IMG/VR virus record: IMGVR_UViG_3300048126_000291
Location: 1-26,844 of that record
Origin: a virus
DNA length: 26,844 nucleotides
Direction: 5' to 3' (one strand)
Shown: positions 4,164-24,202 of the stretch, in pieces
How the letters are laid out: each line of letters opens with the position of its first letter
Numbering within the stretch: position 1 is the first letter of the stretch
Translations under genes and position numbers: made by a program
The notes under the pieces: generated by a model
What the model was told of the DNA's origin: nothing
What the model saw: only the letters and a program-made list of their open reading frames with translations
Databases searched by the model: none

Positions 4164-4700
4164 ATGCCATATCAATTAGATGTAGATTTTACAGATCAGG
4201 CTAGTGCTACAGCTCAAGCACCTTTAAACTATGTAAACCCAACTGCTTTTAAGTTGGTGATTGATAGTCAAAAGTATAAGAACGCTCAGTTTATGGCACA
4301 AACTATAGCTTTACCAGATGTTATCTTAGCAGGTGCAATATACAACACAAGGCAAAGAAATATTGTTGAAGCTCCTGATAAAGTAGAATACGGTCAATTT
4401 GATATGACTTTTCTTATTGATGAGTATTTACTTAACTATAAAGAAATTCATGATTGGATGATTGGTCTTGTAACTACAGATGATCAAGGTGTACGAAAAG
4501 AACGTGATATGACTTTACAAATCTTAAGTAGTCATAATAACGTAGTAGCTGAAATTCAATTTGCAAATGCTATTCCTATTAATTTAAGTTCATTACCGTT
4601 TGATGTAAAATCACAGGATGTGGAATATCTTACGGGCAATGTTACTTTCCAATATAGCTATTTTAAATTCTTAACAAAGGGATTTAACGGAGGCGTATAA
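4164..4700 (+). CDS. Tail-tube-fold protein (gp19-like or gp3-like)
   Basis: This 178-residue protein has the pattern of T4-type tail tube proteins: an N-terminal strand (NPTAFKLVIDS), a central ALPDVIL segment like the ATALPAGI region of gp19, and a C-terminal strand pair (VEYLTGNVTFQYSYFKF) like the EVTLALDYW end of gp19. In T4 the tube gene lies before gp20, whereas in marine T4-like phages the slot between gp23 and uvsY is usually held by tail completion protein gp3, which has a similar length (T4 gp3 is 176 residues). It may therefore be a tube paralogue, a baseplate-tube adaptor or the gp3 tube terminator. A virion tail protein is likely; the exact role is uncertain. Its own late promoter supports late expression. 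Confidence 0.55.
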   Translation: MPYQLDVDFTDQASATAQAPLNYVNPTAFKLVIDSQKYKNAQFMAQTIALPDVILAGAIYNTRQRNIVEAPDKVEYGQFDMTFLIDEYLLNYKEIHDWMIGLVTTDDQGVRKERDMTLQILSSHNNVVAEIQFANAIPINLSSLPFDVKSQDVEYLTGNVTFQYSYFKFLTKGFNGGV

Positions 4701-4703
4701 ATA
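4696..4703 (+). promoter_or_regulatory. T4-type late promoter box overlapping the upstream stop codon
   Basis: An exact TATAAATA contains the TAA stop (4698-4700) of the preceding gene and lies 22 bases before the uvsY start at 4726. The spacing to the start codon equals that of the box at 4135. Confidence 0.75.
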
Positions 4704-4725
4704 ATTTTACATAATGAGGTGAATG

Positions 4726-5169
4726 ATGAACTTAGATGATATATTTGCGATGTGGAAAAAGGACTCTCAAATTGATGAGAATAACCTAGATCAAGCCACA
4801 CTCGAGAATGCTAAACTGCATTCAAAATACCTAGAATTACATTCCAATGCTAAACTACAAGTTAAACGTAAAGAACTTGCTTTCAAGATCTTGCTGAAAG
4901 ACAAGTGGTTATGGTATAATGGAAAGATGACTCAAGAAGAAATGACAGCTAAAGGCTGGAGTTTTGACCCGCTTAATGGACTTAAAATACTGAAAGGTGA
5001 AATGGACTACTATTATGATTCTGATAAAGAGATTCAAGAAGCTCAAGCCACTATTGAATACTGGAAGACTATTGAAGAAGCTTTAAAAGAAATTATGGAC
5101 ACAATCAAATGGCGTCATCAGTCTATTAAAAACATGATTGAGTGGCGGAAGTTTACTTCAGGGGTGTAA
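4726..5169 (+). CDS. uvsY: Recombination mediator UvsY
   Basis: The 147-residue product resembles T4 UvsY (137 residues) throughout: MNLDDIFAMWKKDSQID at the N-terminus, LHSKYLELHSNAKL near residue 32 and a C-terminal IEYWKTIEEALKEI followed by IKNMIEWRKF. UvsY loads UvsX recombinase onto gp32-coated single-stranded DNA during recombination-dependent replication. There are two consecutive ATG codons, at 4723 and 4726. GAGGTG (4716-4721) is too close to the first, so 4726 is preferred. The stop overlaps the ATG of uvsW by one base (TAATG), implying coupled translation. In T4 uvsW and uvsY are also neighbours. Confidence 0.9.
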   Translation: MNLDDIFAMWKKDSQIDENNLDQATLENAKLHSKYLELHSNAKLQVKRKELAFKILLKDKWLWYNGKMTQEEMTAKGWSFDPLNGLKILKGEMDYYYDSDKEIQEAQATIEYWKTIEEALKEIMDTIKWRHQSIKNMIEWRKFTSGV

Positions 5170-6677
5170 TGCCAACAATAATCAAAATTAAGAAAAAGAA
5201 TCATGCAATGATTTTGATTGATTCAGAACCAAGTGTTTTGAATGAACTATCTGACTTTTTTACTTTCTATGTACCTGGTTATAAGTTTATGCCAGCTTAT
5301 AAGAATAAAGTATGGGATGGAAAGATACGTTTATTTGATATTCGTACACATGAGTTGTATGCTGGTTTGTATGCATATGTGAAAGAGTTTGCAAATGCCG
5401 AAGGTAGAGATTACGCTATTGAGCTTGAGCATGATAATTACTATGGCTATCCAGAAGTAACTGAAGAAATTGATATGTCTTTTTTGAATGATTACATTCT
5501 TACGGACAATCAAGGAGCGAAAATAGAACCTAGAGATTATCAATTACGTGCGATTCAGCATGGACTTAAGTCTAGAGCTGCAATGTTGATATCACCTACA
5601 GCTTCTGGTAAATCACTTATAATATACTGTTTAATGCGTTGGTACTTAGAAAACAAAGATAAAAGAGTTCTTATTATTGTACCAACTACTTCACTTGTAG
5701 AGCAAATGTATAGTGACTTTGAAGCATATAGTAAACAAGATAATGGGTTTGACATCAATAACGCAAAAAGAATATATTCAGGAGCACCAAAAAAGAGTGA
5801 AATGCCTGATGTTATTATTTCAACATGGCAATCGATTTATAAGTTACCTGGAGGATGGTTTGAGCAGTTTGGATGTGTATTTGGAGATGAAGCACATAAT
5901 TTTAAAGCTAAATCATTAACTAGCATATTAACTAAACTAAGAGATGCTGAATATAGATTTGGAACAACAGGTACATTAGACGGTACACAGACACATAAGT
6001 TAGTATTAGAAGGATTATTTGGACCAGCCTTTTATGTAACTACAACTAAGTCATTAATGGATAAAGGTTCATTAGCTCAACTTGATATTAAAGTACTATT
6101 ATTAAAATATAAAGAAGAGTACTGTCGTGAGGTGAATAAATATAAGTATCAGGACGAAATTGATTGGATAGTACGATACGAAAATCGTAATAACTTTATA
6201 AGTAATTTAGCTCTTGACCAAGATGGTAACACATTAGTTCTATTTCAATTTGTAGAAAAACATGGAAAACCTCTTTATGATCTAATATTAAACAAAGCCC
6301 ATAAGAGACGTAAAATATTCTATGTCTCTGGAGAAACAGATACTGATACAAGAGAACATGTACGTAAGATAACAGAGGAGCAAAAGAATGCTATCATTGT
6401 CGCATCTTTGGGTACTTTTAGTACCGGTATTAATATTAGGAATTTACACAATATTATCTTTGCGTCACCTTCAAAGAGTCAGATCAAAGTTTTACAATCA
6501 ATTGGACGAGGATTAAGAAAAAGTGATGATGGAAAAAATACCATATTGTACGACATTGCAGATGACTTACATTGGAAGAGTTCCAAAAACTATACACTCT
6601 TACATGCAGCCGAAAGAATTAAAATATACACTAAAGAACACTTTACTTTTAACATTATAGAGATACCTTTACCATGA
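5169..6677 (+). CDS. uvsW: RNA-DNA/DNA helicase UvsW
   Basis: This 502-residue superfamily 2 helicase has an N-terminal region like T4 UvsW (ELSDFFTFYVPGYKFMP, VWDGKIRLFD), Walker A SPTASGKS at residues 142-149, a DEAH box at 240-243 and motif VI QSIGRGLRK near residue 443. T4 UvsW has DECH at motif II. It unwinds R-loops and branched intermediates and switches the phage from origin-dependent to recombination-dependent replication. The ATG at 5169 is chosen because it overlaps the uvsY stop and because the following residues align with the T4 start; an upstream in-frame start at 5142 would add nine unsupported residues. Confidence 0.95.
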   Translation: MPTIIKIKKKNHAMILIDSEPSVLNELSDFFTFYVPGYKFMPAYKNKVWDGKIRLFDIRTHELYAGLYAYVKEFANAEGRDYAIELEHDNYYGYPEVTEEIDMSFLNDYILTDNQGAKIEPRDYQLRAIQHGLKSRAAMLISPTASGKSLIIYCLMRWYLENKDKRVLIIVPTTSLVEQMYSDFEAYSKQDNGFDINNAKRIYSGAPKKSEMPDVIISTWQSIYKLPGGWFEQFGCVFGDEAHNFKAKSLTSILTKLRDAEYRFGTTGTLDGTQTHKLVLEGLFGPAFYVTTTKSLMDKGSLAQLDIKVLLLKYKEEYCREVNKYKYQDEIDWIVRYENRNNFISNLALDQDGNTLVLFQFVEKHGKPLYDLILNKAHKRRKIFYVSGETDTDTREHVRKITEEQKNAIIVASLGTFSTGINIRNLHNIIFASPSKSQIKVLQSIGRGLRKSDDGKNTILYDIADDLHWKSSKNYTLLHAAERIKIYTKEHFTFNIIEIPLP

Positions 6678-7063
6678 CATACACATTAGACGATATCAAT
6701 ATTAAGTTATTTAAGCTCTCATCAGGAGAAGAGATAATCTCTCTTATTTCTTCAGTTCCTAATGATAATGTAATTGAGTTAGAGTCTCCACTTCTATTAC
6801 ATAGGAAAGTTAGTATCACTAATCACTCTTTTGCTTTCAGTGACTGGATGGCTCTATCAAAAGAAAGAGGTAGAGTATCACTTAATCCGATGCATGTGAT
6901 TTCTTCGGCCGATGTTGATGATGAAATTAAAGACAGATATATCAGAATGTGTCTCCAAATGCGTAAAGATGATGAGAGAGAAATAGAGGATGAATATGAA
7001 TACGATGATTCAAAACTAGAAGAATATATGGAAAAGATATTCAGAAAACAAACTATTCATTAA
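6674..7063 (+). CDS. Small protein after uvsW, possible Sm-like fold
   Basis: This 129-residue protein starts inside the uvsW stop (ATGA overlap). Residues 8-45 (INIKLFKLSSGEEIISLIS, then VIELESPLLLHRKV) show the strand-turn-strand pattern of small Sm/Hfq-like phage proteins, where a K-L-x-(S/T)-G-E-E turn is followed by a 'v-i-e-x-P' strand. The last 40 residues are highly charged (DDEREIEDEYEYDDSK). Conserved hypotheticals of this type follow uvsW in several marine T4-like phages, to my recollection. An RNA-binding role is a guess from the fold pattern only. No gene follows for 163 bases. Confidence 0.55.
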   Translation: MTYTLDDINIKLFKLSSGEEIISLISSVPNDNVIELESPLLLHRKVSITNHSFAFSDWMALSKERGRVSLNPMHVISSADVDDEIKDRYIRMCLQMRKDDEREIEDEYEYDDSKLEEYMEKIFRKQTIH

Positions 7064-7098
7064 CTGTGGGTATCCTCCCCTCCTCAGCCTACTCTATT

Positions 7099-7127
7099 AT
7101 TATAACATACTTTTGGCCAGTTGTAAA
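7099..7127 (-). promoter_or_regulatory. Minus-strand sigma70-like promoter, antisense to the late block
   Basis: On the minus strand the sequence reads TTTACA (7127-7122), 17 bases, then TATAAT (7104-7099), with TG one base before the -10 and an upstream GAAAAAAGTCC tract. It is the same promoter type as the nine + strand copies. No minus-strand gene follows; the first possible ORF (MNSLFSEY..., 14 codons) stops quickly. Transcription would start near 7092 and run antisense through the 6674-7063 gene and uvsW. Confidence 0.75.
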
Positions 7128-7160
7128 GGACTTTTTTCAATTATTTTCAATTATTTTTTG

Positions 7161-7226: not shown

Positions 7227-7421
7227 ATGAATATAAACTTAAAAACACACTATCGGGACTTCCAATCCATTATGGATGATACTCTTAAAATCAAATACTT
7301 AATGGACAACATTGATGACCTATCTACATATAATATCAATGTACCTAACTTAATCAAGGCCTTTGAAACAAATGATTGGCCATGGAATAGACCAAAAATT
7401 GACGGAGAATCCTTGGGATGA
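7227..7421 (+). CDS. Hypothetical protein upstream of late sigma factor
   Basis: This 64-residue acidic protein begins MNINLKTHYRDFQSIMDD and ends NDWPWNRPKIDGESLG. It is the first gene after the + strand promoter, with AAGGA 11 bases before ATG, and its stop overlaps the gp55 start (ATGA at 7418-7421), so the two are translationally coupled. I do not recognise the family. By position it could be an accessory of the late transcription machinery, such as a diverged gp33, but it lacks the hydrophobic C-terminal clamp-binding tail expected of gp33, so this remains speculation. Its codon use resembles that of its neighbours. Confidence 0.7.
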   Translation: MNINLKTHYRDFQSIMDDTLKIKYLMDNIDDLSTYNINVPNLIKAFETNDWPWNRPKIDGESLG

Positions 7422-8005
7422 AACCAAAACAAAAACCACATTATGTGAACAATAAAGAATTCTCACACTCAGTTGTTGAATATGTGAGAACTGTAAATGA
7501 AGCTCAAAGCAAAGGAGAACGGCTACCTGTAGTAACTGATTATATTGCAACTTGCTTTTTAAAGATCGCACAAGGCTTGTCACACAAGGCTAATTTTATT
7601 CGCTATACATATCGCGAAGAGATGGTAATGGACGCGGTAGAAAACTGTTTAAAAGCAATTATGAACTATAATATTGATGCGGCTACACGTACTGGTAACC
7701 CAAATGCATTTGCATACTTTACACAGATTTGCTACTATGCTTTCTTACGTAGGCTAGCAAAAGAAAAGAAACAACAAGACATTAAATTTAAATATATAGA
7801 GAAAGCTGGTATTGAGGACTTTATTGTAAATAATGAAGGTGACACTCAGTCAAACTCAGTATCAAGAGCTTTTGTCGATCAATTAAGAGATCGTATTTCT
7901 GTTGTAAGATCAAAAGATGAGGTATTGAAAGATTTTGCAAAAGAAGAAAAGAAGAAAGATAAAGAACGAGCCGCTTCCGGCCTCGAATTATTCATGGGAA
8001 ATTAA
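7418..8005 (+). CDS. 55: Late-promoter sigma factor gp55
   Basis: The 195-residue product resembles T4 gp55 (185 residues). The N-terminal HYVNNKEF matches YNYVNNKEL of T4, and the middle (YREEMVMDAVENCLKAIMNYN, split here as YREEMVMDAVENC and LKAIMNYN, then NAFAYFTQICYYAFLRRLAKEKK) is the sigma region-2 homology. gp55 replaces host sigma70 and recognises TATAAATA boxes. The last residues, SGLELFMGN, form a short hydrophobic tail that corresponds in position to the T4 gp55 tail SLDFLYE that binds the gp45 clamp. A GGAG ribosome site lies about 10 nt upstream. Confidence 0.93.
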   Translation: MKPKQKPHYVNNKEFSHSVVEYVRTVNEAQSKGERLPVVTDYIATCFLKIAQGLSHKANFIRYTYREEMVMDAVENCLKAIMNYNIDAATRTGNPNAFAYFTQICYYAFLRRLAKEKKQQDIKFKYIEKAGIEDFIVNNEGDTQSNSVSRAFVDQLRDRISVVRSKDEVLKDFAKEEKKKDKERAASGLELFMGN

Positions 8006-8011
8006 TCATAA

Positions 8012-9073
8012 ATGAAAATTGCAGTCTTGAATGACACACACGCTGGTGTCAGAAATAGCTCAGACATATTTCTAAATTATCAAAAGAAGTTCTATAGCGA
8101 AGTATTCTTTCCATATTGTCAAGAGCATGGTATTACACAAATCTTGCATTTGGGTGATTACTATGATCATAGAAAGTTTATTAACTTCAAAACACAAAAT
8201 GAGAACAGAAAGATGTTCCTTGAACCTATGAAAGAACTAGGTATCACAATGGACATTATACCTGGCAATCATGATGTGTTCTATAAAAATACTAACAACT
8301 TATGTTCATTAAAAGAGTTGTTGGGTTACTATACATCAAACGTTAATATCATGATGAAGCCAACTACTATAGACTATGAAGGTCTTCGTATTGCTTGTAT
8401 TCCATGGATCAATAACGAAAACTATGATGAAACTATGAAATACCTTTCTAACTGTAATGCTGATTGGGTTGGATCTCATTTAGAATTACAAGGATTTGAA
8501 ATGATGCGCGGTGTAACAAACACTCATGGTATGACTAGAGAAACTTTTAAAAGGTTTGAGCTGGTTATGTCAGGTCATTTTCATACTAAATCAAGTCAAG
8601 ACAACATACATTATCTAGGCTCTCAATTCGAGTTTACATGGGCAGATGCTGGTGATCCTAAGTACTTCCATGTTATTGATACTGAAAAGAGAGAACTTAT
8701 CCCTATCAAAAATAATAACACCATTTTCAAAAAAGTGTTTTACAATGATGAGAAAGTGTGTTATAATAGCTATAATTGTAATGAACTTATAGATAAGTTT
8801 GTAAAGGTAGTTGTTGTGAGCAAAACGAATCATTTTATGTTTGATACGTTTATTGATCGTATTCAGAATATAGATCATCATGAGCTAAAGATTGCCGAAA
8901 CATTTGATGAGTTTATTGGTGAAAATGTAATGGACGAAAGTATCTCTGTTGAAGACACTACTGAGTTGTTAGACTCATATGTGGAAGCAGTAGATACAGA
9001 TTTAGATAAAGAGCGCATGAAAGGTCTTATGAGATCTTTATATGTTGAAGCTCAAAATAGTGAGGTACTATGA
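8012..9073 (+). CDS. 47: Recombination endonuclease subunit gp47 (Mre11-like)
   Basis: This 353-residue calcineurin-like phosphoesterase has the metal-binding motifs in order: D8 and H10 in NDTHAG, D49 in HLGDYYDH, N86-H87 in IPGNHDVF, a GSHLE motif near residue 150 and H189/H191 in SGHFHTK. With gp46 it forms the phage counterpart of Mre11-Rad50/SbcCD, resecting DNA ends for recombination-dependent replication and degrading host DNA. T4 gp47 is 339 residues. It overlaps gp46 by four bases (ATGA) and carries an internal promoter at 8739-8767. The ribosome site is weak; this ATG gives the conserved N-terminal MKIAVLNDTHAG. Confidence 0.95.
   Translation: MKIAVLNDTHAGVRNSSDIFLNYQKKFYSEVFFPYCQEHGITQILHLGDYYDHRKFINFKTQNENRKMFLEPMKELGITMDIIPGNHDVFYKNTNNLCSLKELLGYYTSNVNIMMKPTTIDYEGLRIACIPWINNENYDETMKYLSNCNADWVGSHLELQGFEMMRGVTNTHGMTRETFKRFELVMSGHFHTKSSQDNIHYLGSQFEFTWADAGDPKYFHVIDTEKRELIPIKNNNTIFKKVFYNDEKVCYNSYNCNELIDKFVKVVVVSKTNHFMFDTFIDRIQNIDHHELKIAETFDEFIGENVMDESISVEDTTELLDSYVEAVDTDLDKERMKGLMRSLYVEAQNSEVL
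8739..8767 (+). promoter_or_regulatory. Sigma70-like promoter inside gp47, ahead of gp46
   Basis: TTTACA at 8739-8744, a 17-base spacer and TATAAT at 8762-8767 match the other promoters of this window, including the TG before the -10 and an upstream CAAAAAAGTG tract. It lies within the gp47 coding sequence about 300 bases before gp46, so it could raise gp46 and thyX expression independently of gp55 and gp47. Confidence 0.7.
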
Positions 9074-13999: not shown

Positions 14000-15175
14000 A
14001 TGAATACATTAACGTTCTCACAACGAGCCCTCCTTGAAAGAGTGGCTGAAACTTACCCTAACAAGGAAGAGTTTCGTAAACCTGAACTTAAGATTATTGC
14101 TGATCAAGTTGGTATCTCTCATAAAGATGTCGATAAGATCTTTAATCTTGGTCAGAAAGTACGCTATGGAGTGTACAATTTGCAAGCGGTAATTCTACCG
14201 TTTCAAAACAAACAACCTCAAATTAATACTAAGGAGTCGCCTAAAGTGCAAAACGTTCAATCTGTTATGAACGATGAAATCTTTGTACCAGAGCAAGATC
14301 CGTATTTCGTACGTTGGGGTCATTTTAGTGACGTTGAAGCTATCGTTGCTAGTAACTTATTCTATCCAGTCTATGTCACTGGTCTTTCAGGTAATGGTAA
14401 AACTATGATGGTTGAGCAGGCTTGTGCTAAAGCTAAAAAGCAATACCTAAGAGTTCAAATTACTCCTGAGACTGATGAAGATGATTTGATTGGTGGTTTT
14501 CGTTTGGTCAATGGTGAAACAGTTTTTGCCGAAGGTCCAGTTATTAAAGCTATGAAAACTGGTGCTCTTCTTCTTATTGATGAGTTAGATCGTGGATCAA
14601 ACAAAATTATGTGTCTTCAAGGTGTACTTGAAGGTAAGCCAGTTCTTATTAAAAAGACTGGTGAAATTGTAAAACCTGCTGAAGGTTTCAATGTTATTGC
14701 TACTGCAAATACAAAAGGTAAAGGATCAGAAGATGGTCGGTTTATCGCAGCTAATATTATTGATGAAGCTTTCCTTGAAAGGTTTACAATCACAATGGAA
14801 CAACCTTATCCTACTTCTGGTATTGAAAAGAAAATCATTAAGAAGCATATGGATAAGTTTAATAAAGTTGATGATGACTTTGCAGAAATGCTTACTATCT
14901 GGTCAGAAACTATTCGTAAGACTTTTGAAGATGGTGGTGTAGATGATCTTATCTCTACTCGTCGTCTATGTCATATTGTTCAAACATTCTCTATCTTTGG
15001 TGATCGTCAAAAAGCTATAGAGTTATGTGTTAACAGGTTTGATGTAGATACTAAAGAAGCTTTCATTGATCTATACCAAAAGGTAGATGGTACAACTAAT
15101 GTTGGCGAACCAGATCTAACAGATATACGTGCACAACATGATGCACTTAACGAAATAATTGAAGAGGTATCATAA
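14000..15175 (+). CDS. MoxR/CobS-like AAA+ ATPase
   Basis: This 391-residue protein has an N-terminal region of about 100 residues followed by a AAA+ core: Walker A GLSGNGKT at residues 128-135, Walker B LLLIDELDR around 190-198, sensor 1 VIATANTKG near 233 and an arginine-rich STRRLCH segment near 320. This matches the 'CobS' ATPase widely annotated in marine T4-like phages. CobS itself is the ATPase of aerobic cobaltochelatase, but MoxR ATPases with VWA partners act more broadly as remodelling chaperones. The partner VWA gene is just upstream. A GACGGAG ribosome site precedes ATG. The stop overlaps the next start (TAATG). Confidence 0.88.
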   Translation: MNTLTFSQRALLERVAETYPNKEEFRKPELKIIADQVGISHKDVDKIFNLGQKVRYGVYNLQAVILPFQNKQPQINTKESPKVQNVQSVMNDEIFVPEQDPYFVRWGHFSDVEAIVASNLFYPVYVTGLSGNGKTMMVEQACAKAKKQYLRVQITPETDEDDLIGGFRLVNGETVFAEGPVIKAMKTGALLLIDELDRGSNKIMCLQGVLEGKPVLIKKTGEIVKPAEGFNVIATANTKGKGSEDGRFIAANIIDEAFLERFTITMEQPYPTSGIEKKIIKKHMDKFNKVDDDFAEMLTIWSETIRKTFEDGGVDDLISTRRLCHIVQTFSIFGDRQKAIELCVNRFDVDTKEAFIDLYQKVDGTTNVGEPDLTDIRAQHDALNEIIEEVS

Positions 15176-15561
15176 TGGAAGTAGATTATAAATTTAATGA
15201 GGGCAATCTAATTGCCCAATTAAAGAAGTATATTGATGGCACATATAACGGCCATTATTCTAAGAATAAGTTTCAGTCAACAGAATTTATTATTGACTGT
15301 GGTCATGGCATGGGTTTTGCTTTAGGTAATGTTCTAAAGTATGCCCAACGTTATGGCAAAAAAGATGGAGCAAATCGTAAAGACTTAATGAAGATTTTAC
15401 ACTATTCGCTTATTGCATTACATCAACATGATTTAGATGATGCAGAGCAGTGGCCAGAAGAAGGAAGAATAGAATGTGATTTTTCAAATAATTATGTTTA
15501 CAAAGGTCCAGAAATGTGTTATAATATATCTACAAATTATGAAAATAAGGAAACTAAATAA
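15175..15561 (+). CDS. DUF3310-like protein
   Basis: This 128-residue protein contains GMGFALGNVLKYAQRYGKKD followed by RKDLMKILHYSLIALHQH, the 'FxLGNxxKY..R.GKK...DL.K...Y' pattern of DUF3310 phage proteins, sometimes called SaV-like nucleotide kinases. The biochemical function is not firmly known; a nucleotide-metabolism role is the common suggestion. The start overlaps the MoxR stop and the stop overlaps the gp45 start. The last third (DFSNNYVYKGPEMCYNIST) is encoded by DNA that also contains the gp45 promoter, so that sequence serves two purposes. Confidence 0.7.
   Translation: MEVDYKFNEGNLIAQLKKYIDGTYNGHYSKNKFQSTEFIIDCGHGMGFALGNVLKYAQRYGKKDGANRKDLMKILHYSLIALHQHDLDDAEQWPEEGRIECDFSNNYVYKGPEMCYNISTNYENKETK
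15497..15525 (+). promoter_or_regulatory. Sigma70-like promoter for gp45
   Basis: TTTACA at 15497-15502, 17 bases, TATAAT at 15520-15525 with extended TG at 15517-15518. It lies inside the 3' end of the DUF3310-like gene and would start transcription about 30 bases before the clamp gene. Confidence 0.8.
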
Positions 15562-16416: not shown

Positions 16417-16651
16417 TATTCAAGATCTCGAGGCAGTTGTAAAGATCATTGATGCTTGCTCAGAACGTGGAGCCTTTAAAGGAAACGAGATGGCTTCCGT
16501 TGGTGCAGTTCGTGAAAGAATAAACGAATTTGCTATAGCTAACAAACCAGAACCAGTGGCAGAGCCACAGGAGAATGATAATGAAAAAGATGATGGTATT
16601 GACTACGATGAGTCTAACCCTATTGTCATCGACAGTGATAGCAAAGACTAA
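16397..16651 (+). CDS. Hypothetical acidic protein
   Basis: This 84-residue protein has a structured N-terminal half (NIQDLEAVVKIIDACSERG, then VGAVRERINEFAI) predicted as two helices, and a disordered acidic tail (ENDNEKDDGIDYDESNP). AAGGAG lies 6 bases before the ATG. It overlaps the small gene upstream by 20 bases and contains the start of the next gene in another frame. Similar small proteins near gp45 occur in marine T4-like phages, to my recollection, but I cannot name a function. Confidence 0.75.
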   Translation: MEAPQLNIQDLEAVVKIIDACSERGAFKGNEMASVGAVRERINEFAIANKPEPVAEPQENDNEKDDGIDYDESNPIVIDSDSKD

Positions 16652-17111
16652 TTGCGATTACACTCATGTTGTAGGAGAAAACTTTACTCATAAAATAGAG
16701 TCAATGACTAATTATGAACGTAAAGTTTTTCCCTATATTGAAGACACAAGAGCATGTGTAGTATCTATGAATGTTAAAATTGATGGCATATCATATCATA
16801 CTAAAGGTAAATTTGTTTTTGGCCCAGACCAGACTGAAACTAAATCGTGTATGCAGGCTGAAGTAAGAGCTAAACAAAACATTATTAGACAAGTTTCTCC
16901 TGAGTTGTTATCCTCAAATACTACTATGGATTGCAAACCAGCTGAAAAGCTCAAAGTAGTAGAATACGTGCATCCTAATGATGCCGATATTACTACTCAT
17001 CCTGATTTTTTAAAAGGTTGGGCTAAGCCAATACCTCAAAGGTCGAATAGGCAATTGAACTTTGGTACTATGTTAAGTGGAGTCGGTTTGGCTCTACAAC
17101 TGTTGAATTAA
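16581..17111 (+). CDS. Exported protein with Sec signal peptide, unknown function
   Basis: The product starts MKKMMVLTTMSLTLLSSTVIA followed by KTNCDY, a textbook signal peptide with likely cleavage after VIA. The ATG at 16581 is chosen because AGGAG (16569-16573) is 7 bases upstream; an in-frame ATG at 16575 would be too close. The mature protein has several cysteines (NCDY, RACVVS, SCMQAE, MDCK), which fits disulfides in the periplasm, and ends with a glycine-rich hydrophobic segment (GTMLSGVGLALQLLN). It overlaps the previous gene by 71 bases. Two further exported proteins follow. No family is recognised. Confidence 0.8.
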   Translation: MKKMMVLTTMSLTLLSSTVIAKTNCDYTHVVGENFTHKIESMTNYERKVFPYIEDTRACVVSMNVKIDGISYHTKGKFVFGPDQTETKSCMQAEVRAKQNIIRQVSPELLSSNTTMDCKPAEKLKVVEYVHPNDADITTHPDFLKGWAKPIPQRSNRQLNFGTMLSGVGLALQLLN

Positions 17112-17125
17112 TTATGGAGATGAAT

Positions 17126-17776
17126 GTGAAACAGTATCTATTATTATCTGCCGCAGCTATAGCTTTAACTGCGTGTGGTTCTACTGATAAGCTAACTAAA
17201 GTTGCACTTATTGAAGAGCAACGAGAAATGGTAGAAGATCAAATTGACACTATGCCAAAATGGTTTACTAAAATTCCTGTAAAAAATGAAAGTATTTTTG
17301 CAGTAGGAACAGCCGTAACTCCTGACTTACAACTAAGTTATGATATTGCAGTTCTTAATGCTAAGACTACTTTGGCTGATAGGATTAATGGTAAAGTTCG
17401 ATCTCAAACTAAAAACTTTATGGCTAAGGTTGGCAATACTGACCTAGATGCCGCAGTTATGAATGAAGTTGAAAAGGTAACTAAGAATGTTATTGCTGAT
17501 GTAGATGTTGCAGGTTATGCAGTATCTGAAGCTGAAATCTTCCCTGATGGTACACAATATCGTGCATTTGTATTACTTGAGTATAACGATGTTGAAGCTG
17601 AAAAGATTATTGTAAATCGACTTCGTAAAGATCGTTTACTTTACTCAAAGCTTAGGGCCAATAAAGCCTTTAAAGAACTTGATGAGTCTGTAGATAAGAT
17701 TAAAGAAGAAGAGTCTAATCAATCAGAAATTAACCTTAAATTAGAGGAGCTTATTCCAAATGACAATATGGGCTAA
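17126..17776 (+). CDS. LPP20-like outer-envelope lipoprotein
   Basis: The N-terminus reads (V/M)KQYLLLSAAAIALTACGS: a positively charged n-region, a hydrophobic core and a lipobox LTAC for lipid attachment at the cysteine. A GTG start at 17126 is preferred, as GGAG (17116-17119) is 6 bases upstream; in-frame ATGs at 17114 and 17120 are also possible. The mature part (MPKWFTKIP, IFAVGTAVTPDLQLSYDIAV, LNAKTTLADRING) resembles LPP20-family lipoproteins, a group that includes Vibrio FlgP. The C-terminus is a charged helix. In phages, early lipoproteins can block receptors against superinfection (T5 Llp), but a role here is inferred only. Confidence 0.8.
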   Translation: MKQYLLLSAAAIALTACGSTDKLTKVALIEEQREMVEDQIDTMPKWFTKIPVKNESIFAVGTAVTPDLQLSYDIAVLNAKTTLADRINGKVRSQTKNFMAKVGNTDLDAAVMNEVEKVTKNVIADVDVAGYAVSEAEIFPDGTQYRAFVLLEYNDVEAEKIIVNRLRKDRLLYSKLRANKAFKELDESVDKIKEEESNQSEINLKLEELIPNDNMG

Positions 17777-21217: not shown

Positions 21218-21229
21218 CAAAAAAAGTCC

Positions 21230-21285: not shown

Positions 21286-23895
21286 TTGAAATTCTACACA
21301 TCTATTAATCGTTATGGCAATCAGCTTCTTTATCGTGGTTATGACAATGGTCAACCAGTATCAAAAAAGATAAAGTACGAGCCTACGTTATTCGTAAAAT
21401 CACAAAAACCAGAAACTGGCTACAAAAGTCTTGATGGTGTATCAATTGAGCCTAGATTGCTTGATGATATGCGTTCAGCTAAAAACTTTCTTAGTACATA
21501 TCAAGATGTGGAAAGCTTTAACATCTATGGTTCTACCAACTATGTAAATGCATATATTGCTGAACAGGAAGAATGGAAAGATGATATTGAGTTTGACCGT
21601 GATAAAATCAAAGTAACTTCTATTGATATTGAGGTACAGTCTGATGATGGATTCCCAGAACCAGATCAAGCTGCTCAGCCAATTATCTCTATTGCATGTA
21701 AAAACAATATTGATAATATCTATTTTGTCTGGGGCTTTGGTGACTATGACGTATCAAAGTCTATTATGCAAGATTGTCAAGTTGTCTATCGTAAAATGGA
21801 TAACGAAATACATCTATTGTCTGAGTTTCTTAAGTGGTGGAATTCACCAGCACACTGTCCAGATGTAATCACTGGTTGGAATGTCCGTGGCTTTGATGTT
21901 CCATATATGGTAAATCGTATCAATAAAGTTCTTGGTGAAGGTCAAGCAAATCGCTTATCACCTTGGGAACACGTTAATGAAAGAGTTATGAAGTTCAAAG
22001 GTCGTGATCTTACTACTTATGAACTATATGGTATTGTTACACTTGACTATATGGACATGTTCAAAAAGTTTGGTTATGCATACGGCCCACAAGAATCGTA
22101 TTCACTTAATCATATATCTCATGTAGTCCTTGGTGAAAAGAAACTATCTTATGAAGAACACTCTTCACTTCATGGTTTATATGAAGCTGACTTCCAAAAG
22201 TTTATTGACTACAATATCAAGGATGTTGAGTTAGTTGATCGCCTTGAAGATAAAATGGGTCTTATTACTTTGGTAATGACAGTTGCCTATAAAGCTGGTA
22301 TCAACTATATGGATGCATTTGGTACTACTTCGATGTGGGATACTATTATTTACCGTACTCTTTCAAAGAAAAACATATATCCAAATGTGGAAAAGATCGC
22401 AGGTAATACTGATTATGTAAAAGCTGGATCTACTGTTGGAACCGGTAATGCTACTCATGTAACTAAAGATGGGATACGTACTGGTGAAGTAAAAGAATCT
22501 AGTTTTGCTGGTGGCTATGTTAAAACACCACAAGTTGGTTTACATGAGTGGGTTGTATCTTTTGATTTGAACTCACTATATCCAAATATTATTGTTCAAT
22601 GGAATATGTCACCAGAAACTATCGTATCCGGTACTACACTTGGCGTTACACCTGATACATGTCTTGGTGGTTACAATACTAAAAACTCAGATAAATCTAC
22701 TTCTATGGCAGCCAATGGTGTTCACTTTAAGAAAGATGGGATTGGTGTTCTACCATCTTTGATTATTGATTACTATGCTGAACGTAAAGCTATCAAAGAT
22801 AAGATGCTGGCCTCTCAACAAGAACGTCAGGGTATTGACCCAAGTCAAAAGCAAGAAATCTACCGTATTGAACGTGATATGAATCGATTTGAAAACCAGC
22901 AAATGGCTATTAAGATTATGATGAATAGTTTATATGGTGCACTTGGTAACAAATGGTTTCGTTATAATGATATCTCTATGGCTGAAGCTATCACTCTTTC
23001 TGGTCAGTATGCTATTCGTTTTGCTGAAAAGACAGTCAATAATCATATGAATGAGTTACTTGGTACTGATGAAGACTATGTTATAGCAATTGATACTGAT
23101 TCATTGTATGTTAACTTTGGTCCATTAGTTAAAAAGCTAAATCCAAAAGACCCAGTTGCCTTCCTTGATAAGATTTGCCAAGAAAACTTTGAAATTGTTA
23201 TCAAAGATGCTTACAAAGAGTTATTTGATCATATGGATTGTGCCCGTCCACGTATGGAAATGGGTCGGGAAGCTATTGCTGATGTCGGTATCTGGACTGC
23301 TAAAAAGCGTTATATTCTAAATGTTCACAACAATGAAGGTGTAGCTTATGCTGAACCTAAGCTTAAGATTATGGGTATTGAAGCTATTAAGTCATCAACT
23401 CCATCTCAGTGTCGTGATGCTCTTAAAGCTTTATTCAAAGTTATTGTAACTGGATCAGAGGATAAAACACAAGAAGCTATTCGCCAATTCAAACAGCATT
23501 TCTTTAAATTACCAGCCCATGAAGTCTCATTTCCTCGTGGTGTAAATGATGTTGATAAGTGGACACGTAAAACTGGTTATGCCAAAGGTACTCCCATACA
23601 TGTTCGTGGTGCTATCTTACATAATCAAGCTATCAAGTCAGCCAGTCTGGATACTAAATATGAGTATATCCGCAATGGTGACAAAGTCAAGTTTTGTTAT
23701 CTTAAAAAGCCAAACCCTATCAAAGAGAATGTGGTGTCATTCAAAGACTTCTTGCCTCCAGAGTTACAGCTTGATAAGTACATTGACTATGATCTACAAT
23801 TTCAAAAAACCTTTCTAGATCCTATTGAACCAATCCTTACATCGATTGGCTGGAATCAAGAAGAACAAGCTACATTGGAGGCATTCTTTGGTTGA
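21286..23895 (+). CDS. 43: DNA polymerase gp43 (family B)
   Basis: This 869-residue polymerase aligns with T4 gp43 (898). Exonuclease motif I is D114/E116 in SIDIEV (T4 D112/E114). Polymerase motif A is FDLNSLYPNIIVQW, motif B KIMMNSLYGALGNKWFRYND and motif C AIDTDSLYVN, so both activities look intact. The C-terminus, ATLEAFFG, is a plausible clamp-binding tail. Translation starts at TTG (21286), with GGAGG 9 bases upstream and the following KFYTSINRYGN matching the T4 N-terminus; no in-frame ATG is nearby. The weak start codon may limit polymerase levels. Confidence 0.97.
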   Translation: MKFYTSINRYGNQLLYRGYDNGQPVSKKIKYEPTLFVKSQKPETGYKSLDGVSIEPRLLDDMRSAKNFLSTYQDVESFNIYGSTNYVNAYIAEQEEWKDDIEFDRDKIKVTSIDIEVQSDDGFPEPDQAAQPIISIACKNNIDNIYFVWGFGDYDVSKSIMQDCQVVYRKMDNEIHLLSEFLKWWNSPAHCPDVITGWNVRGFDVPYMVNRINKVLGEGQANRLSPWEHVNERVMKFKGRDLTTYELYGIVTLDYMDMFKKFGYAYGPQESYSLNHISHVVLGEKKLSYEEHSSLHGLYEADFQKFIDYNIKDVELVDRLEDKMGLITLVMTVAYKAGINYMDAFGTTSMWDTIIYRTLSKKNIYPNVEKIAGNTDYVKAGSTVGTGNATHVTKDGIRTGEVKESSFAGGYVKTPQVGLHEWVVSFDLNSLYPNIIVQWNMSPETIVSGTTLGVTPDTCLGGYNTKNSDKSTSMAANGVHFKKDGIGVLPSLIIDYYAERKAIKDKMLASQQERQGIDPSQKQEIYRIERDMNRFENQQMAIKIMMNSLYGALGNKWFRYNDISMAEAITLSGQYAIRFAEKTVNNHMNELLGTDEDYVIAIDTDSLYVNFGPLVKKLNPKDPVAFLDKICQENFEIVIKDAYKELFDHMDCARPRMEMGREAIADVGIWTAKKRYILNVHNNEGVAYAEPKLKIMGIEAIKSSTPSQCRDALKALFKVIVTGSEDKTQEAIRQFKQHFFKLPAHEVSFPRGVNDVDKWTRKTGYAKGTPIHVRGAILHNQAIKSASLDTKYEYIRNGDKVKFCYLKKPNPIKENVVSFKDFLPPELQLDKYIDYDLQFQKTFLDPIEPILTSIGWNQEEQATLEAFFG

Positions 23896-24196
23896 ACAAA
23901 CTATAAAAGAAAAGATTAAACAACGTCGAGCTCAGATGCTTGTACATTCATATATCTACTATCAGTTAGATGATAACATTGTTAGTGATCATACTTGGCA
24001 GCAATGGGCAGATGAGTTAACAGAACTTCAAAATGCTAATCCTAGTGAATGCAATATTGATTACTATGATAAAGAGTTCAAAGACTGGAATGGAGCAAGT
24101 GGAGCATTTCTTCCACTTGACGATCCTAAAGTTATAGCTAAAGCAGAAAGATTAATTAGTTTTGAAAAAGAGGTTTACAATGCAACAAAAGTGTGA
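23888..24196 (+). CDS. DNA ligase LigA-related protein
   Basis: A TTG at 23888 with TGGAGG (23876-23881) 6 bases upstream starts a 102-residue protein that overlaps gp43 by 8 bases. The segment KQRRAQMLVHSYIYYQLDDN, then IVSDHTWQQWADELTELQ resembles domain Ia of NAD+-dependent DNA ligases, the small N-terminal part that binds NMN, and stand-alone phage proteins named 'LigA-related'. No adenylation domain is present, so it cannot ligate by itself. Its TGA stop is also the TGA of the next promoter's extended -10. Confidence 0.7.
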   Translation: MVEQTIKEKIKQRRAQMLVHSYIYYQLDDNIVSDHTWQQWADELTELQNANPSECNIDYYDKEFKDWNGASGAFLPLDDPKVIAKAERLISFEKEVYNATKV

Positions 24197-24202
24197 TATA
24201 AT
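24174..24202 (+). promoter_or_regulatory. Sigma70-like promoter for the MazG-like gene
   Basis: TTTACA at 24174-24179, 17 bases, TATAAT at 24197-24202 with TG at 24194-24195. The spacer is the last 17 bases of the LigA-related gene, including its stop codon. Confidence 0.88.

Follow-up and report, generated by a model that had tools for sequence, protein, structure and literature searches.

Two systems come closest to the element described here, a minus-strand promoter at positions 7099 to 7127 of the IMG/VR virus fragment IMGVR_UViG_3300048126_000291 (26.8 kb, from a T4-like marine phage; the whole fragment is called the window below), which lies between uvsW and the gene of the late sigma factor gp55 and points against uvsW. 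In phage T4, the origin oriE has an early-mode promoter read by the unmodified host polymerase near a change of the transcribed strand, and its early transcript runs opposite to the late genes. In the cyanophage S-PM2, the RNA CfrI (about 225 nt), the antisense RNA already known in this group of phages, is expressed antisense to psbA and a homing endonuclease gene (PMC2984593, PMC5931967). The promoter in the window shares with CfrI a cis-antisense direction, against the 3' end of a phage gene, in a lytic T4-like marine phage. However, expression of CfrI has been demonstrated, and the gene concerned is one of photosynthesis, whereas the present promoter lies at the border of uvsW, an Sm-like gene and gp55, is retained by nearly all relatives sampled, the clade of the window among them, and has a predicted transcript. 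The early transcripts of oriE (repEA and repEB) are coding and are accompanied by 12-nt iterons, whereas the present site has neither a coding frame nor iterons, and is a candidate only for the role of an origin. The T4 origin oriF, ori(uvsY), also lies beside uvsY and uvsW, needs a non-late promoter and is regulated by UvsW, but that promoter depends on MotA and is oriented towards uvsY and later genes, whereas the present one is of the plain sigma70 type and points against uvsW. An early cis-antisense promoter of a phage is known as a kind of element; new here are its clade-wide conservation and an unusual initial transcribed region. No mention of an antisense RNA at uvsW/gp55 was found in the literature searched, of which the coverage was partial, and earlier notice is possible.

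The initial annotation had described a perfect TTTACA-17-TATAAT with an extended TG, and exactly this is present on the minus strand, with TTTACA at 7127-7122, a 17-nt spacer that ends in TGt, and TATAAT at 7104-7099. The near-consensus hexamers, the spacing within 16-18 nt and the TG before the -10 are those of an extended -10 promoter of sigma70. Nine sites of the form TTTACA-N15-19-TATAAT exist in the window, against 0.15 expected by chance; eight are on the plus strand, and 7099-7127 is the sole one on the minus strand, on which no perfect TATAAATA late motif was found in the window. The parts of the antisense promoter are as follows.

7099 to 7127, minus strand: antisense promoter TTTACA-N17-TATAAT with extended -10 (TGt), exact in the sequence and kept in relatives.
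7128 to 7138, minus strand: GAAAAAAGTCC tract abutting the -35, common to some plus-strand promoters and not conserved in relatives.
7092 to 7093, minus strand: predicted transcription start, A/G 6-7 nt past the -10, placed by spacing and the most conserved leader columns.
7074 to 7085, minus strand: G-rich purine tract GAGGAGGGGAGG of the initial transcribed region, seen in the sequence and in relatives.

The tract next to the -35, said to be the same as that of the plus-strand promoters, is shared with some but not all of them: it recurs exactly upstream of one (25999/26010) and with one or two mismatches, likewise abutting, at those at 21219, 13926 and 11571.

Loss of the motif in close relatives had been named as grounds for giving up the promoter, and the opposite was found, because it is present at the same place in nearly all of them. 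The loci of relatives were gathered through their gp47 proteins, and thus blind to the promoter, which gave 75 distinct gaps between the 129-aa gene that follows uvsW and gp55; since these gaps are phylogenetically related, they are not 75 independent tests. Loci that had been found by the promoter pattern itself (L107-L226) were excluded from the statistics. Out of 12 hexamer positions, the best minus-strand promoter had no mismatch in 42 gaps, one in 26, two in six and three in one, while the corresponding fractions of shuffled gaps were 0.2%, 2.1%, 17% and 40%. In other words, 68 of the 75 gaps (about 2% of shuffles) have at most one mismatch, and 74 (19% of shuffles) at most two. The window's clade contributes 25 distinct sites, in which neither TATAAT nor the TG ever changes and most spacer positions vary, and perfect hexamers persist in relatives down to about 60% protein identity. 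A search for near-identical DNA among phage isolates found no relative. In cyanophage-type records with the same gene order, read by eye, 19 of 20 (C48C1, P-SSM2, P-HM2, S-PM2, S-SKS1, S-RIM2, S-CAM3, S-CAM9, S-SM2, S-SRM01, S-SZBM1, S-PRM1, ACG-2014b, ACG-2014f, Sf-FS3, DSL-LC02, DSL-LC03, AG-345-E02 and AG-345-L05) have a minus-strand TTGACA-like/16-17/TAnnnT promoter; in Melnitz the junction shows no more than a weak extended -10 on the minus strand. In BUCT-ZZ01, in which gp55 and uvsW are apart, there is no minus-strand promoter at gp55 and none at the end of the gene after uvsW. Because 68 of 75 relatives chosen blind to the promoter have it in the same gap, it is not an accident of one genome, and since nearly all relatives sampled from the T4-like ocean phages retain it there, it is very probably real and useful.

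The gene order in the window, all on the plus strand, is gp23 region, tail-tube protein, uvsY, uvsW, the 129-aa gene, a gap of 163 nt, a 64-aa ORF, gp55, gp47 and gp46, and the statement that everything to the left of the promoter is on the plus strand holds for all sizeable genes of annotated type. The promoter does face the uvsW block, as first described, but the first gene opposed to it is the separate 129-aa gene between uvsW and the promoter. The following features surround it.

6674 to 7063, plus strand: Sm/LSm-like 129-aa gene, first opposed gene (phrog_471/527; profile match to PDB 3BY7).
5142 to 6677, plus strand: uvsW helicase, second opposed gene (annotation; protein matches).
4723 to 5169, plus strand: uvsY recombination mediator, third opposed gene (annotation of window ORFs).
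4696 to 4703, plus strand: TATAAATA late-promoter-like motif ahead of uvsY (the T4/cyanophage late motif according to PMC2984593).
7161 to 7189, plus strand: divergent partner promoter TTTACA-N17-TATAAT of the gp55-47-46 block (pattern scan; relatives).
7227 to 7421, plus strand: small ORF of 64 aa between the plus-strand promoter and gp55, without a family match.
7418 to 8005, plus strand: gp55-like late sigma factor (phrog_234).

The top isolate match of the window's uvsW is that of phage C48C1 (57% identity), followed by Synechococcus, Methylophilales and Prochlorococcus phages. To the left of the antisense promoter, no strict sigma70 promoter on the plus strand was found in the window or in 23 kb of a second contig, G001, while to the right there are eight and 15, respectively; the gap, at the border of the late block and the gp55-47-46 block, therefore marks the late/middle border. 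Cyanomyoviruses have neither motA nor the T4 enzymes that alter the host polymerase, and plain sigma70 promoters are believed to serve their early genes; cyanophage late genes use NATAAATA with gp55 (PMC2984593). Firing of the minus-strand promoter should therefore precede the late phase. A late promoter drives uvsW in T4, where the helicase unwinds the R-loops (RNA-DNA hybrids) from which early replication is primed (PMC3016281); premature UvsW would therefore be harmful.

We favor, at a probability of roughly 0.48, a host-sigma70 promoter that would fire before the late phase and whose cis-antisense transcript would restrain the Sm-like gene and uvsW; an early antisense RNA is most likely its product. 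What the sequences show is the promoter itself, where it lies, how well it is kept, its tract and which genes adjoin it; that it is transcribed, and when, how far and with what repressive effect, is inferred. The promoter faces the Sm-like gene, uvsW and uvsY, with no conserved minus-strand ORF of its own downstream, as expected of a cis-antisense element. The promoter at the late/middle border of T4-like marine phages (Kyanoviridae and relatives) would be read by the host's sigma70 RNA polymerase in unmodified form, and leftward firing would give a transcript predicted to cross the 3' end of the Sm-like gene and to reach into uvsW. Antisense pairing and head-on interference between polymerases might keep the promoter-distal genes, namely uvsW and the Sm-like gene, at a low level as long as sigma70 transcription lasts, and the block would be released once gp55 redirects the polymerase to late promoters. 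T4-like marine phages are among the most abundant viruses, and their gene timing and the start of their replication are barely known. A non-coding promoter that almost all sampled relatives have at one position is a strong clue to a control step so far overlooked, and makes testable both an early hold-off of uvsW by antisense transcription and the place where replication begins. It also draws notice to the Sm/LSm-like phage protein encoded exactly opposite.

The G-rich leader noticed initially is real, in that the RNA predicted from a start near 7092 begins AGUAGGCUGAGGAGGGGAGGAUACCC. The equivalent starts would lie near 120709 in P-HM2 (NC_015284.1), near 74897 in S-PM2d (LN828717.1) and near 124805 in P-SSM2 (AY939844.2); for P-HM2 on Prochlorococcus MED4, RNA-seq reads of both the sense and the antisense direction were counted in PMC5082946. 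In every case in the window's clade, a purine tract containing 6 to 12 G lies some 13-25 nt past the -10. The standard deviation (SD) of its distance is 1.8 when measured to the -10 and 2.6 when measured to the stop codon of the opposed gene, and the tract is thus fixed in position relative to the promoter and not to any target sequence. At the tract position, the four antisense promoters found in the window, in G001 and in another long contig, G002, have a 12-mer with 7-9 G, as against at most five G in 40 further promoters of this strict type; the mean over the 25 clade sites is 8.3 G (rank test p = 5e-12, the sequences being related). The G-rich tract is confined to antisense promoters in this clade. 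The leader of the cyanophages is AACTCTGnnAGGGTTnAAGRGA or a variant of it, and 90 of the 120 exact matches to the cyanophage promoter plus leader in IMG/VR are antisense at this junction; the other 30 lie elsewhere, mostly ahead of sense ORFs. Complete cyanophage genomes contain the combination one to three times each, for example before cpeT. Because it also precedes sense genes, the leader is there a feature of a promoter class and not specific to antisense promoters. The module TTGACA-N17-TAnAAT-nnCTnTGnnAGGGTT, seen at 30 loci within L108-L226 and at ACG-2014b 12546 and 46771, Sf-FS3 178115 and S-CAM9 141573, may represent a promoter class, with a downstream element, that has yet to be described. 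As for the G-rich initial transcribed region, it is probably a part of the promoter module (for start, escape or stability) and not of a structured RNA. A G-quadruplex was rejected, since some leaders, such as AGUCCACUUGAGGCCAGGGG and GAGCAGAGGUAGACC, lack four G runs (by eye), and so was a palindrome centered on the transcription start in cyanophages, AACTCTGnCAGGGTT, of which the left half lies upstream of the expected start and which is absent from P-HM2-type leaders. As the initial annotation held, no minus-strand gene was found: the antisense ORFs past the start have 1 to 80 codons and are not conserved, which also led us to reject a minus-strand peptide. A conserved antisense ATG results from the TIH/TLH C-terminus of the plus-strand protein, which is also found in Melnitz, where the promoter is weak.

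Ten long contigs were scanned with the strict pattern. Nearly all matches are on the coding strand, and in eight of the ten the present site is the sole match on the opposite strand. G001 (126 kb) and G002 have further opposite-strand matches, of which only that at 104431 in G001 carries the G tract. This second site (L293, 104431-104403) lies between gp5- and gp25-like genes and faces baseplate genes. It is kept in 11 close contigs (loci L309-L320), of which five have a different opposed gene, and more distant phages lack it at gp25. It adjoins a 215-nt non-coding stretch with short repeats and palindromes.

Several results weigh against restraint of the opposed genes as the function of the promoter. 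At the second site in G001 the promoter is kept while the opposed gene changes, and the cyanophage promoter-plus-leader type also drives some sense genes. A search for a conserved fold in 23 leaders gave 0 conserved pairs, single-sequence folds were no better than those of shuffles, and Rfam gave only chance-level matches far below the gathering scores, and a structured small RNA was rejected on these grounds. In front of uvsY, about 30 close relatives have a late-type motif in roughly half of the cases and a sigma70 promoter in about ten (three rows of this list, L022, L051 and L044, mistakenly picked up the gp55 promoter). With both sorts of uvsY the antisense promoter persists, including the roughly ten that have a sigma70 promoter and no late motif. 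The opposed block is therefore not always purely late, and repression would have to hit the distal genes only, so that early silencing of late genes, as first suggested, is not the whole story: about a third of the close relatives give uvsY a sigma70 promoter of its own. The class of the uvsY promoter changes at one locus, from the late-type TATAAATA at 4696-4703 in the window to sigma70 in L037, L048, L049, L060, L067, L028 and L072.

A transcript-primed (R-loop) replication origin, at which the leftward G-rich RNA would stay on its template and prime the leading strand, as at T4 oriF and as proposed for oriE, would work whatever gene is opposed, which fits both the gene change at the second site and the switching of the uvsY promoter. 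G-rich or polypurine RNAs favor stable RNA-DNA hybrids, as in ColE1 RNA II and mitochondrial CSB II, and the tract is tied to the promoter and not to a target sequence. The site has the early/middle promoter of a T4-type transcript-primed origin and lies beside uvsY/uvsW; G001 has its second antisense G-tract promoter between gp5- and gp25-like genes, and gene 5 of T4 is next to oriE. We nevertheless consider an origin, the main rival of the favored reading, unlikely. The second site is restricted to one close clade, cyanophages have leaders with less G and use the same module to drive sense genes, and the window site has only short two-copy repeats and no evenly spaced 12-nt iterons. No consistent switch of GC skew at fourfold sites was found across the locus in five genomes, although the shift in strand composition seen near T4 oriE, oriF and oriG is absent at oriA and oriC and hence not required (PMC3016281). 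The T4 origins share no common sequence motif (PMC3016281), so that position is weak evidence. Slightly less probable still is the fuller version, a conserved R-loop origin with a polypurine start resembling RNase-H-resistant ones, beside the gene of the UvsW that later erases it, the same module forming a second, lineage-specific origin beside gp5.

The back-to-back promoters might also serve to part the late block from the gp55 block, leftward polymerases colliding with rightward late ones and so doing the work of an intrinsic terminator. The block border is where the site is found in every case, no plus-strand terminator is predicted after the Sm-like gene, and the gap of Melnitz, the one isolate whose minus-strand promoter is only weak, contains an A+T-rich hairpin with T after it (by eye). 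However, late read-through into gp55-47-46 is not obviously harmful, a terminator would be simpler, and collision needs constant firing from sigma70 promoters that are expected to be weak late in infection, which makes this function improbable. Even less should be expected of a small trans-acting RNA or peptide, such as an RNA bound by the Sm-like protein encoded opposite: the leader is conserved in each clade and in its G-rich form resembles repeated Shine-Dalgarno motifs, but the small regulatory RNA envisaged initially gains no support from structure or from a conserved peptide, there is no conserved terminator nearby, and the protein accounts for the antisense ATG. A+T-rich regions commonly contain weak promoter-like sites (36 found and 33 expected), yet a functionless chance sequence or relic of rearrangement is very improbable and is largely refuted by conservation, in that perfect hexamers are kept while the spacer drifts and cyanophages have a promoter at the same place.

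Turning to the first opposed gene, cyanophage members of the 129-aa family pass the Pfam Sm_like cut-off, while the window copy alone falls below it. The family profile matches PDB 3BY7, an Sm-like protein of putative cyanophage origin, with an E-value of 2.6e-11, and the predicted structure of the 129-aa protein (pLDDT 81) has target-normalized TM scores of 0.88-0.90 to the best chains of 3BY7. The identity is about 21%, and the likeness bears on the opposed gene and not on the promoter. In records of T4-like cyanophages the gene is named "methylamine utilization", which is misleading, since it encodes an Sm/LSm-like protein of the 3BY7 family.

Elsewhere in the window, the perfect sigma70 promoters at 8739-8767 (within gp47), 15497-15525 and 24174-24202 lie inside or at the ends of coding sequences and read into the next gene; the ORFs around the latter two are 15175-15561 and 23825-24196. 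The neighboring ORFs 16575-17111 and 17114-17776 have signal-peptide-like starts, the second with a lipobox-like LTACGS, and two ORFs resembling exported proteins in a region of replication genes are unusual for such a phage block.
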